The notes under the pieces: generated by a model
Seen by the model: the letters and a program-made list of their open reading frames with translations, nothing else
Told to the model about the DNA's origin: nothing
Database searches by the model: none
Part shown: piece after piece, positions 11,967-15,444 of the stretch
Layout: each line of letters begins with the position of its first letter
Position numbering within the stretch: position 1 is the stretch's first letter
Assembly (NCBI GenBank): GCA_010692425.1
Contig: JAAHHJ010000030.1
Coordinates: 1-64,000, forward strand
DNA: 64,000 nucleotides
Direction of reading: 5' to 3'
DNA from: Symploca sp. SIO3C6
GTDB taxonomy: Bacteria > Cyanobacteriota > Cyanobacteriia > Cyanobacteriales > Coleofasciculaceae
Translations under genes and position numbers: made by a program

Positions 11967-12716
11967 TTGGAAAGCATCCTCGTTATTATTCCCGTCCTTA
12001 ATGAAGAAGCTACCATCACCGGAGTTATTAAGTCTCTACAATCCTATGGTCTTAAAAAAATTAGGGTTGTAGACAATGGCAGCACAGATAAAAGCGTCCA
12101 AAAAGCCAAAGCCGCTGGTGCAGAGGTTATACTTGAGCCTACTCCTGGTTATGGTCAGGCCTGTTGGCGGGGTTTGCAGCAACTGCCACCAGAAATTGAT
12201 TGGATTCTATTTTGTGATGGTGATGGAAGTGATGAGCTGAGTAAACTTCCCCAGTTTTTTGCTAACAAAGATAACTTTGACTTGATTTTGGGGAATCGCC
12301 GTGCTACAAGCGCTGGGCGAGCAGCCATGACTCCAGTACAAAATTTTGGCAATTGGCTAGCTACCTTCCTCATTCGTTGGGGTTGGGGGTATGGTTATTG
12401 CGACTTAGGGCCACTGCGTTTAATTCGCCGCCGTTGTCTAGAGCAAATCCAAATGCAAGATCGTGGGTTTGGTTGGACAGTGGAAATGCAAGCACGAGCA
12501 GTTGAATGCAGACTGCGTATCTGTGAAATTCCTGTAGGCTATCGCTTGAGACAGGGGGGGCGATCGAAAATTTCTGGCACTGTTTCGGGCAGTATTAAGG
12601 CAGGAACAGTTATTTTGAGTACTATCTTCAGTTTATACCTGCGCCGACTAAGGGCGGATGGGGAGACGGGGAGATGGGGAGATGGGGAGATGGGGAGATG
12701 GGGAGATGGGGGATAA
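11967..12716 (+). CDS. Family 2 glycosyltransferase, polyprenyl-phosphate-sugar synthase-like
   Basis: A GT-A fold enzyme: ILVIIPVLNEEATITGVIKS at the N-terminus, VVDNGSTD (nucleotide site), LFCDGDGSDE (DxD-type metal site) and later DLGPLRLIRR with GFGWTVEMQ. It resembles dolichyl- or undecaprenyl-phosphate hexose synthases that charge the lipid carrier in the cytosol. The only in-frame start after the upstream stop is TTG at 11967. The last 22 residues (RADGETGRWGDGEMGRWGDG) are the translation of the octamer repeat at 12651-12712, so the native C-terminus has been replaced or extended. The next gene, a GT-C enzyme, starts 4 bases after the stop and may use its product. Confidence 0.83.
   Translation: MESILVIIPVLNEEATITGVIKSLQSYGLKKIRVVDNGSTDKSVQKAKAAGAEVILEPTPGYGQACWRGLQQLPPEIDWILFCDGDGSDELSKLPQFFANKDNFDLILGNRRATSAGRAAMTPVQNFGNWLATFLIRWGWGYGYCDLGPLRLIRRRCLEQIQMQDRGFGWTVEMQARAVECRLRICEIPVGYRLRQGGRSKISGTVSGSIKAGTVILSTIFSLYLRRLRADGETGRWGDGEMGRWGDGG
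12651..12712. repeat. GGGGAGAT octamer array forming a protein C-terminus
   Basis: About six tandem GGGGAGAT units with one GGGGAGAC variant. Three 8-bp units make 24 bases, so the array reads as a repeating GRWGDGEM octapeptide at the end of the GT2 protein, whose stop codon TAA is just past the array (12714-12716). Confidence 0.9.
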
Positions 12717-12720
12717 TTCT

Positions 12721-14217
12721 ATGGTTGCTCACCAATTGTCTCGATCGCCAATTCAGTCTCCAAAATCTAAATTTGAATCGCTTCTGCTTTGGCTTGCTGC
12801 TGGGCTCTTGTTAGTTGGTGCAGTTGGCATTATGCCCTATGGGGACTTTCGACAGGTGGGGAATGTCTCTAAGTTTTGGCTGGGTATTGGTGTGATGAGT
12901 CTGGGTTTTCTCCTCTCTTGGAGACTGCGTAAAGTCAGCGGTGTCTGGTTTTGGGGAGTTGCTATCCTGACAAGGCTGTTGTTACTACCTATGTACCCAG
13001 GGGATGATGTTTGGCGTTATCTGTGGGAAGGATATACCCAGACTCTGGGATTTAGTCCTTATGATTTGGCACCAAATGCAGCAGAGCTTATTCCTTATCG
13101 TACTCAATGGTGGTCACAGATTAATCACCAAGATGTTTCTGCTATCTATCCGCCAGTTACTCAGTTGGGCTTTCGAGTTTTAGCGACTGTTACTCCTAGC
13201 GTTTGGCTATTCAAGGCAGCATTTATCTTAGCTGACTTATTAACTTGTTGGCTGCTGAGTCGTCGCTTTACTTATCAACAGGCAATTGTTTATGCCTGGA
13301 ATCCTCTAATTATCTATTCCTTTGCTGGTGGCGCACACTACGATAGTTGGTTTATTTTGCCCTTGGTTGCTGCTTGGTTAGTTTTTGATTACTCTGGCAA
13401 AGCTCTCCGGAGACGCGGAGAGGGGGAGAGGGGGAGATGGGGAGATGGGGAGAAAGAGTTATCTTTTAGAGAGCAATTTGGTATTAAAAGTGCTTTGTTG
13501 CTTGGTATCAGTGTTGCGGTTAAATGGATGTCTCTGCCAATTTTAGGCTTTCTGACTTGGCGAGCTTTCTTGGAAATGAAACCAAGTGGGAATCAAAGCA
13601 GTAATTTACTCTTTCAGAGAGAGAGGGAAAGAGGGAGAGAGGGAGAGGAGGAGAAAAACTTATCTGTAAGAGAGCAACTGGTTGTAAATACGAAACGGGC
13701 AGTGGTTGTTCTAATACTAGGTTTCTTGCCTTTGGCTATCAGTGCTATTGGATTTTGTAATAGTGGGGAATGTCCCTTAATTCCTACAGGCTCTGTTTTT
13801 GTTTCTCATGGGCGTAGTGCTGAATTAATTCCTTATTTAGTTAGCCTGTATTGGGAGCCTTCTCGTTGGGCTAACTGGATTTATTTGTTCCCTCTAGGTT
13901 TGGCAGGGATATGGTTACTTTGGCGGGCATGGAGTTTTCTGCAATTTGCCCAGTGGTATTTTTTTGCTCTGGTGACTTTATCGCCTATTGTCCATGCTTG
14001 GTACTTTACTTGGTTGGTTCCTTTTGCTGTTGCTACTGGCAATTTGGGAGTGCGTTTAGTTAGCATTTCGGCTTTTGTTTACTTTGTCCTACAGCACCGC
14101 GCGGCTCTGGGAAATTACGATTGGGATTTAACTCGTCAGGAAAGATTATGGCTCTGGTTGCCTTTTGTTTTAGGTTGGCTATGGACAACTAGTTTAAAGT
14201 CAAAAAGTAAATTTTAA
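12721..14217 (+). CDS. GT-C mannosyltransferase-like membrane protein (MptB/GT87-like)
   Basis: A 498-residue protein with about eleven membrane segments. After the first segments the loop YPGDDVWRYLWEGYTQTLGF and YDLAPNAAELIPYR, then SAIYPPVTQLGF, match the catalytic outer loop (DDxxRY-type) of polyprenyl-phosphate mannose-dependent transferases. I start it at ATG 12721; an upstream ATG at 12658 would add only repeat-encoded residues overlapping the previous gene. Two repeat-derived insertions, at 13409-13460 and 13615-13660, add charged loops (RRRGEGERGRWGDGEKEL and RERERGREGEEEKNL) without breaking the frame. With the GT2 gene it likely builds a polyprenyl-linked glycan; substrate unknown. 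Confidence 0.8.
   Translation: MVAHQLSRSPIQSPKSKFESLLLWLAAGLLLVGAVGIMPYGDFRQVGNVSKFWLGIGVMSLGFLLSWRLRKVSGVWFWGVAILTRLLLLPMYPGDDVWRYLWEGYTQTLGFSPYDLAPNAAELIPYRTQWWSQINHQDVSAIYPPVTQLGFRVLATVTPSVWLFKAAFILADLLTCWLLSRRFTYQQAIVYAWNPLIIYSFAGGAHYDSWFILPLVAAWLVFDYSGKALRRRGEGERGRWGDGEKELSFREQFGIKSALLLGISVAVKWMSLPILGFLTWRAFLEMKPSGNQSSNLLFQRERERGREGEEEKNLSVREQLVVNTKRAVVVLILGFLPLAISAIGFCNSGECPLIPTGSVFVSHGRSAELIPYLVSLYWEPSRWANWIYLFPLGLAGIWLLWRAWSFLQFAQWYFFALVTLSPIVHAWYFTWLVPFAVATGNLGVRLVSISAFVYFVLQHRAALGNYDWDLTRQERLWLWLPFVLGWLWTTSLKSKSKF
13409..13485. repeat. G-rich repeat insertion in the GT-C gene, first copy
   Basis: An octamer-type purine run (13409-13455) with a tail TTATCTTTTAGAGAGCAA, translated as a hydrophilic loop ending LSFREQF. 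The tail matches that of the second insertion 200 bases downstream (LSVREQL), so both carry the same element. Confidence 0.8.
13615..13695. repeat. G-rich repeat insertion in the GT-C gene, second copy
   Basis: A GAGAGGGA-type purine run (13615-13660) with a tail TTATCTGTAAGAGAGCAA. It is translated in frame and is parallel to the first insertion. It sits in another loop of the same membrane protein. Confidence 0.75.
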
Positions 14218-14583
14218 GCTTGTTCTCATTAAGGACTCATTTTGATCAGGTTAGATAAATCATGAAGGTTCATGGTTCATGGTTCATGGTACGCGCTCCG
14301 CGCATGCTGCGCAAACATTGGGTTGGTATAGCAGTACGTATTAAGGTTAGGACAAGCTAAATCGCTAAAACTTTGTCAAATTCACCCCTTCTGCCTTGGA
14401 GCCTTCTGCCCTGGAGCCTTGCGCATAGCGCTATATAAGGGCAGTTGTGATATGCATCCCCAATGAACAATCAACAATGAACTATGAGCAAACTTTACCA
14501 ATGAACAATCAACAATGAACTATGAACAGTAAGACAATAACAAATGCTGATTACAAGATAGATAATTTATAGTCTCTAAAGTA
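14218..14583. repeat. Spacer with three simple-repeat families
   Basis: No gene seen. 14262-14292 has GGTTCATGGTTCATGGTTCATG units; 14294-14313 has a GC-rich hairpin (GCGCTCCGCGCATGCTGCGC); 14388-14420 has two 15-bp CCTTCTGCCTTGGAG units; 14463-14527 has two copies of a longer AATGAACAATCAACAATGAA unit. All are typical cyanobacterial low-complexity spacers. Confidence 0.7.
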
Positions 14584-15444
14584 ATGAATAAATTCAATCG
14601 ATTTCTGGTTCTATTTCCTGCACTGATTGTTATTACTGGCTGTGCTGGTTCTTTCTCTTCTACTCAAGCACAGCAGGAGATTTCTCAGATAGAAACTTCG
14701 AGTACTGCTTCAGCAGAAACTTTAAGTTATGACGACTATGCCGCTGTCTTGGAAACCTATATTGATGAGAAAGCACTGGTTGATTATCAAGGATTAAAGG
14801 TAAATCGACAGCAACTAGATAAGTTTAATGCGAGTTTGGGCCAGGTTACTGCTAGCACCTATGAATCTTGGAGTTCAGCAGAGCAAATTGCTTTCTGGAT
14901 TAACGCCTACAATTCCTTCACCCTAGAGTCAATCATTGACCAAAATCCTCTTAAAAAGAGTATTAAAGATATTCCTGGTGTCTGGAAAGGACGAAAATTT
15001 CAGATTGCAGCTCAATCTAAGACCTTAGACAATATTGAACATCAAACTCTGCGGAAAGACTTCAATGAGCCTCGAATTCATGTAGCTTTAGTTTGTGCAG
15101 CAATGAGTTGTCCACCATTACGAGATGAACCCTACACGGGGGAAAAGCTAGATGCCCAGCTCGATGACCAAACTCGTATATTTCTTAATAGTCCTCAAGG
15201 CTTCCGCATTGATCGTCAAGAAGGTAGAGTTTATCTTTCTTCTATTTTTAAATGGTTTGGTAAAGATTGGGAAAAAACTTATGGGGTAGATGGAAAGTTT
15301 ACTGGCAATGCTAGTCAACGAGCTGTATTGAATTTTATTAGTGGCTACCTTAGTGCAGAAGACAAAGAATATCTTGCTCAAGGAAATTACAAGGTGAGGT
15401 ATCTCGACTATGATTGGTCTCTAAATAGCCAAAATAAAATATAG
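14584..15444 (+). CDS. DUF547 lipoprotein
   Basis: A 286-residue protein beginning MNKFNRFLVLFPALIVITGC; the ITGC lipobox predicts a lipid-anchored exported protein. The DUF547 domain follows (about residues 95-215) with FWINAYNSFTLESIIDQNP, IHVALVCAAMSCPPLRDEPY and LSSIFKWFGKDW. The conserved AxSCPPL and Cys residues suggest a papain-like or transglutaminase-like fold, but no activity is established for the family. It is monocistronic, with a repeat-rich spacer on each side. An AT-rich region with AGTAATG precedes the start; no strong ribosome site is visible. Confidence 0.85.
   Translation: MNKFNRFLVLFPALIVITGCAGSFSSTQAQQEISQIETSSTASAETLSYDDYAAVLETYIDEKALVDYQGLKVNRQQLDKFNASLGQVTASTYESWSSAEQIAFWINAYNSFTLESIIDQNPLKKSIKDIPGVWKGRKFQIAAQSKTLDNIEHQTLRKDFNEPRIHVALVCAAMSCPPLRDEPYTGEKLDAQLDDQTRIFLNSPQGFRIDRQEGRVYLSSIFKWFGKDWEKTYGVDGKFTGNASQRAVLNFISGYLSAEDKEYLAQGNYKVRYLDYDWSLNSQNKI

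Follow-up and report, generated by a model that had tools for sequence, protein, structure and literature searches.

In-frame insertions in two loops of a GT-C-like membrane protein of Symploca sp. SIO3C6 as probable copies of a dispersed MITE family with a minisatellite core

A gene for a GT-C-like membrane protein in Symploca sp. SIO3C6 contains two purine-rich insertions with similar tails. The question raised by this locus is whether these insertions are expanded simple repeats, duplicates of one another, or copies of a longer element that was inserted twice without breaking the frame, as the original prediction claimed. The stretch of DNA analysed, hereafter the window, comprises 64,000 nucleotides (contig JAAHHJ010000030.1, positions 1 to 64,000), and all coordinates without a locus name refer to it.

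Host protein and borders of the insertions

The host gene occupies positions 12721-14217 of the plus strand and encodes a polytopic membrane protein of 498 amino acids from ATG, within a 519-codon ORF that is open from 12658. The two tails, TTATCTTTTAGAGAGCAA at 13459-13476 and TTATCTGTAAGAGAGCAA at 13660-13677, are both located in this ORF and are translated into LSFREQF and LSVREQL, and purine arrays detected by TRF (13409-13453 and 13619-13654) lie immediately 5' of them. Positions, arrays and reading frame are as originally described. All other tail matches in the window have three or more mismatches with the consensus tail. An AlphaFold2 model of the host protein was built from an alignment of 33 sequences (mean pLDDT 89.6). 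The ten best Foldseek matches of this model in PDB are GPI mannosyltransferase I, AglB, PimE, ALG6, ArnT, ALG3 and a GPI transamidase subunit, all of which we take to be GT-C enzymes or GT-C-fold subunits. Their E values range from 1.6e-3 to 0.1, none being 0.001 or lower, with probabilities of 0.99-1.00 and TM scores by query of 0.32-0.51. The assignment of the host protein to GT-C is a prediction from fold matches that are weak but consistent. No family is assigned to the protein by Pfam or NCBIfam, and a search of 12300-14700 at Rfam gathering scores gives no match. The inserts correspond to residues of about 230-254 and 286-322, with mean hydropathies of -1.84 and -1.42. Like some other stretches of the model, both are predicted with low confidence; they are placed between long helices, and the second insert is partly modelled as a helix itself.

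In the window, GT2 and GT-C are encoded by two overlapping ORFs (11967-12716 and 12658-14217), and a related octamer array without element ends, detected from the sequence and by TRF, is located where they meet (12657-12711, plus strand). In G006 and G004, GT2/GT-C is a single continuous ORF (715 and 764 amino acids; L003 and L005) with a charged repeat-like linker between the two parts, and in G005 it is a frame of 750 amino acids.

Both inserts are absent from the homologs of G004, G005 and G006, which belong to one genus (g4), and the loops of these homologs are short. Three of the four Moorena genomes (g10) were taken for the alignment (G013, G015 and G016); in these, the loop-2 insert is missing and loop 1 has a different sequence. 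When the 108 bp at 13577-13684 are removed, the remaining sequence, WRAFLEINTKRAVVV, has the same length as WRTFRQVGIVKAVIV of G006 and is aligned with it without a gap. Alignment with homologs lacking the insert, which had been proposed as a check, thus gives exact in-frame borders for loop 2. Both inserts are present in the congener (G017), in which the loop-1 array is longer. Both insertions thus predate the split from the one congener compared. The GT-C gene of the congener ends at a contig edge within the loop-1 array (start of L002, G017:C364:1), and the first half of this gene gives no match in the same search; the cut is probably an assembly gap.

Other inserts are found in the same two GT-C loops in Okeania, Moorena, Oscillatoria, Trichodesmium and Xenococcaceae (L149, L142, L119, L111, L115 and L116). 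DNA similar to loop 1 of Okeania is also present elsewhere in the loci that were fetched. The original prediction named distant homologs with the same loops coded by unrelated DNA as evidence against it. Some distant homologs do have long loops of other DNA; this result shows that the loops tolerate inserts, but it does not undo the element.

A dispersed element with terminal repeats

The element has the layout TNA-TACCAAGTTGCAATCAAAGAAGCAATTTACTCGTTC-purine core-GAGAGAGTTATCTGTTAGAGAGCAACTTGGTA-TNA and is about 95 bp long. Full copies read TNA-TACCAAGTTGC...GCAACTTGGTA-TNA, the two ends forming terminal inverted repeats. Two models of 15 rows each were made for searches: R1 for the right end, built from sequence only, and R2 for the left end. 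In loop 2, the copy is nearly full length, and its homology extends about 40 bases left of the array, up to the left terminal repeat. It consists, on the plus strand, of the left end AACCAAGTGGGAATCAAAGCAGTAATTTACTCTTTC at 13580-13615 (R2 match at 13577-13619, E 9.3e-9), a purine-rich core at 13616-13656 and the right end AACTTATCTGTAAGAGAGCAACTGGTTG at 13657-13684 (R1 match at 13641-13690, E 3.1e-11). The excision comparison places TGA at 13577-13579 on its left and TAA at 13685-13687 on its right, so that N is not the same on the two sides, and its terminal repeats are degraded. In loop 1, the insert at 13409-13483 is a 5'-truncated copy, in which an octamer purine array of the GGGGAGAT type (13409-13451, plus strand) replaces the left end and is followed by the right end GAAAGAGTTATCTTTTAGAGAGCAATTTGGTA (13452-13483, plus strand; R1 match at 13439-13489, E 4.3e-15) and an adjoining TTA (13484-13486). 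All three matched ends are themselves training rows of the model that matches them. The claim that the same longer element is present in both loops therefore holds nearly in full for loop 2 and only for the 3' part in loop 1. The element is more than an array with a tail, because it also has terminal repeats and has relatives with a TNA duplication. When folded, two full copies of the congener give z values of -1.44 and -3.05 against shuffles; the loop-2 copy (z 0.10) now folds no better than shuffles.

The tail is dispersed. In the genome search proposed as a check, the tail pattern gives, with up to two mismatches, 17 matches in the own genome (G000) and six in the reversed control. R1 detects at E<=0.001 at least 28 right ends in G000, 11 of which are model rows including both window copies and 17 of which are new, and at least 22 in the congener, four of which are model rows. 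Of the 20 genomes in the family search, at least eight give a match, G018 with at least 14, and no match is obtained among the scored candidates of the three g4 and the four g10 genomes. Across 148 genomes of the order, at least five have a match at E<=1e-4 with stricter filters. These counts are lower bounds, as the best 150 candidates per genome were scored, or the best 39 in the order search. At E<=0.001, R2 detects nine left ends in G000 (eight model rows) and 13 in the congener (seven model rows). Because right ends are more numerous than left ends, truncation or rearrangement has affected many copies. With one mismatch allowed at most, the end pattern TNATACCAAGTTGC is found 43 times in G000 (reversed control, 8), 59 times in the congener (control, 3) and 257 times in G018 (control, 9). 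Several of the G018 sites (L227-L266) are at contig edges, and the MITE family is strongly amplified in this genome and seems to break the assembly.

These results bear on the reading that a plain octamer repeat (STRR) expanded in two loops, with the shared tail either native to the loops or the result of convergence at the protein level. The window is rich in octamer arrays and many copies have no left end, as such expansion would produce. However, homologs without the inserts are also without the tail, the tail is found at numerous unrelated sites including intergenic ones, mostly followed by a variant of CAACTTGGTATNA, and full copies carry the left end as well. Plain octamer expansion is rejected because the element ends are dispersed, and we consider it very improbable. 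The claim that a longer element was inserted twice, in frame and in hydrophilic loops, is instead borne out by the homologs lacking the inserts, the gap-free excision of loop 2 and the dispersed tail.

Sixty stretches were fetched around the ends (40 from G018, 12 from G000 and 8 from the congener), and 28 pairs of facing ends 60-400 bp apart were analysed, an alternative 348-bp pairing in L282 being omitted. Identical TNA trinucleotides are present on both sides in 24 of the 28 pairs (16/18 in G018, 3/4 in G000 and 5/6 in the congener). The binomial probability of this identity is 1.5e-9, when about 30% is expected if N is free, and this value is to be read with the pairs being partly dependent: L267 and L279 look orthologous, 18 of the 28 pairs are from one genome, and six G018 pairs contain N runs. 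The apparent size of these six pairs, 305-350 bp, is not real because of the long N runs inside. In end pairs without N, the element is 68-218 bp long; it is multicopy and has no transposase gene. Many of its relatives in G018 have a purine tandem core built from another unit, such as GACAAGGG. Within a 182-bp copy at positions 2764-2945 of L283, there seems to be another small element with inverted repeats, AGTCGGACA...TGTCCGACT. The window's own copies lack a matching duplication, loop 2 being flanked by TGA and TAA and the left end being absent from loop 1. Of the 13 two-ended copies in the subfamily to which the window's copies belong, five have matching trinucleotides at their flanks, or six if L096, with CCA at the right, is counted at N, which is no clear excess.

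A 1,508-bp stretch of G002 (L289) has the same ends, flanked by TTA on both sides, and contains two ORFs with an IS630-type HTH and DDE_3. Both domains exceed the Pfam cut-offs. The ORFs match the NCBIfam IS630 model with E values of 9.7e-22 and 6.9e-20, each half being under the whole-protein cut-off, probably owing to a break that divides the gene into two parts. A second relic is present in G018 (L303), where the same left end lies about 125 bp ahead of the start of the same transposase. A search of nine genomes with the transposase ORF of the relic gives no intact autonomous IS, just relics and distant homologs, with no match at E<=0.001 in G000 and the congener, and no autonomous copy is seen by eye among the ORFs of 21 single-end stretches. 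ISY100, an IS630 element, duplicates TA (PMC2170065, in the part of its text available). The TA duplication of IS630/Tc1-mariner elements is not found here, as the element duplicates TNA. Derivation of the MITE from an IS630-type transposon is therefore likely but not proven, because TNA differs from the TA of ISY100.

Movement is seen at one filled/empty site, L049, which constitutes the evidence for mobility. The NACHT-WD40 gene of G000 contains a 105-bp insert at this locus, and the congener is empty there (CAATGC|TCAATAG), without a scar. NACHT homologs of G002, G005 and G020, identified by similarity and with orthology assumed, also lack the insert. The simplest reading is therefore that the G000 lineage gained the insert. 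The NACHT linkers of these three genomes hold other short stretches.

Copies within proteins and their common frame

Right ends are located inside long ORFs in 7 of the 28 cases in G000 and 5 of the 22 in the congener, at nine sites in all. The hosts are both GT-C loops (in G000 and the congener), a NACHT-WD40 protein (two sites in G000, one of them common to the congener), a hybrid histidine kinase, a sigma-70-like protein, an ABC transporter, a CHAT-TPR protein and a large protein whose Pfam matches are all below threshold. Three further copies are not included in these numbers: one in the congener's sigma-like ortholog (L100, R1 E 0.0013), one at the C-terminus of a membrane protein (L276) and one, shortened, in the CHAT gene of G000 (L269). 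All 12 counted copies are in sense orientation and in the LSVREQLG frame. In 32 other copies, the 49-base stretch around the tail is open in the LSVREQLG frame in 18, in another sense frame in 15 and in an antisense frame in 24. Thus, stop codons alone do not dictate the frame choice. The frame statistic is partly biased, in that L018/L049, L027/L050 and L028/L080 were first found by protein search in the LSVREQLG frame; the sites found by DNA only (L060, L072, L087 and L094), together with the C-terminal copy of L276, agree on the frame in five of five cases. L058 and L098, two antisense copies that are preceded by only 44 and 11 codons, respectively, at the 5' edge of an ORF, may count against the common frame, or the true start of these ORFs may be downstream of the copy. 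None of six congener loci that were rechecked is within a long sense ORF, the longest sense frame being 123 codons (L098).

The GT-C and NACHT-WD40 genes hold two copies each, as they would if one copy had given rise to the other within the gene, so that loops 1 and 2 of GT-C were derived from one another by local duplication and not by two insertions. Against this, ends of the CAATTTGGTATTA type link loop 1 with other copies, not with loop 2, and both loops' copies are already present in the congener. The tolerance of these loops, which in distant homologs carry other DNA, can also explain the doubling. Local duplication is therefore unlikely, and two insertions are the preferred explanation. 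Among the 11 of 14 loci (L310-L323) in which the linker of NACHT-WD40 was compared, it differs between most of the genomes, and G018 and G010 share theirs. The G018 linker has similar DNA at other fetched loci and the G006 linker has a 34-base match; for the loop and linker inserts of other lineages, no second place is seen in the small set fetched, save these two linkers and loop 1 of Okeania. It is possible that the NACHT-WD40 linker is a hot spot for repeat-derived peptides.

The same frame and orientation at nine sites would also be produced if the peptide encoded by the element had been domesticated and selected, for example as a regulatory cytosolic linker, and the loop-2 insert is 108 bp long in both congeners. 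However, this insert differs between G000 and the congener at 24 of 108 bases (13/72 at codon positions 1 and 2), as compared with 36 of the 530 bases of the host stretch downstream (22/177 at third positions and 14/353 at positions 1 and 2), and the model is of low confidence at both inserts. With a divergence above that of the host's third codon positions, the loop-2 insert has the look of a tolerated passenger. This comparison of one insert in one species pair fits a passenger whose length is kept and whose sequence would be little constrained; a domesticated functional module is correspondingly improbable.

Both GT-C loops thus very probably hold copies of a dispersed, protein-coding MITE family with a minisatellite core, presumably mobilised by an IS630-type transposase and tolerated as linkers. 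The MITE would be moved in trans by a transposase with the same ends, as the relics suggest, and its purine-rich middle would expand and contract as an octamer minisatellite. If a copy landed in sense orientation within a protein loop and its length was a multiple of three, it would be read through without a stop (..GEGEKELSVREQLG..) and retained as a hydrophilic, little-constrained linker, presumably close to neutral for the protein. Copies that landed in another frame or at an essential place would be lost. The copy in loop 1 would have been formed by truncation and array growth, the order of which is conjectural.

Relation to known small repeats

STRR, heptamers, small dispersed repeats and the Nezha MITE are likewise small cyanobacterial repeats, and small dispersed repeats within tandem heptamers and minitransposons of cyanobacteria were reportedly described by Elhai in 2008. 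The nearest analogues of the element are Rickettsia palindromic elements (RPE), for the in-frame insertion, and BrickBuilt, for the minisatellite within a MITE. RPE are small repeats that have entered numerous unrelated protein genes in frame and encode a conserved peptide, according to the available text of PMC10969869. The cyanobacterial element is like them in being inserted in frame in unrelated protein genes, a likeness by description, but RPE are about 150 bp long and from a different phylum, and in the present element terminal repeats are visible, together with a TNA duplication and a relative of IS630 type. BrickBuilt of Porphyromonas gingivalis is a MITE with a tandem-repeat core between a leader and a tail with small inverted repeats (PMC4596501, available text), and is similar in having a minisatellite core within a MITE. 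Its unit is, however, of 23 nucleotides and not an octamer, and the word in-frame is missing from the main text of the source, where no coding insertions are seen described. QMITE1 and QMITE2 of Coxiella extend or interrupt ORFs, some in frame; they differ from the present element in that mostly C-terminal overlaps and hypothetical ORFs are concerned, and an octamer core goes unmentioned in the accessible part of the source (PMC5896051). The parts are therefore known (MITE, RPE-like in-frame insertion and minisatellite in a MITE); their combination is not found reported for cyanobacteria, as none of the papers listed in literature searches deals with a comparable in-frame MITE in this group.

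We tentatively suggest that this transposon-derived element may be preadapted to translation, in that tail and array form one hydrophilic sense frame, and may spread into linkers in one frame and orientation with the minisatellite core tuning linker length, certain linkers (the GT-C loops and NACHT-WD40) being recurrent landing places for different repeat families in each lineage. The family would represent a free-living, large-genome counterpart of the parasitic DNA turned protein of Rickettsia, in which terminal repeats, the duplication of relatives, a transposase-bearing relative and an empty site are visible. It also suggests an origin of some cyanobacterial octamer arrays inside MITE ends, and warns that charged stretches of the GEGERGRWGD type in cyanobacterial proteins can be passengers from mobile DNA and not domains. 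G-rich heptamer arrays are under-represented in coding regions (PMC4692102, available text); unlike them, the octamer array here lies within coding sequence, as part of an element that has terminal repeats. Directly 3' of the host gene, the window contains intergenic heptamer and 15-mer arrays at 14267-14528 (GGTTCAT, CCTTCTGCCCTGGAG and CAATGAA).
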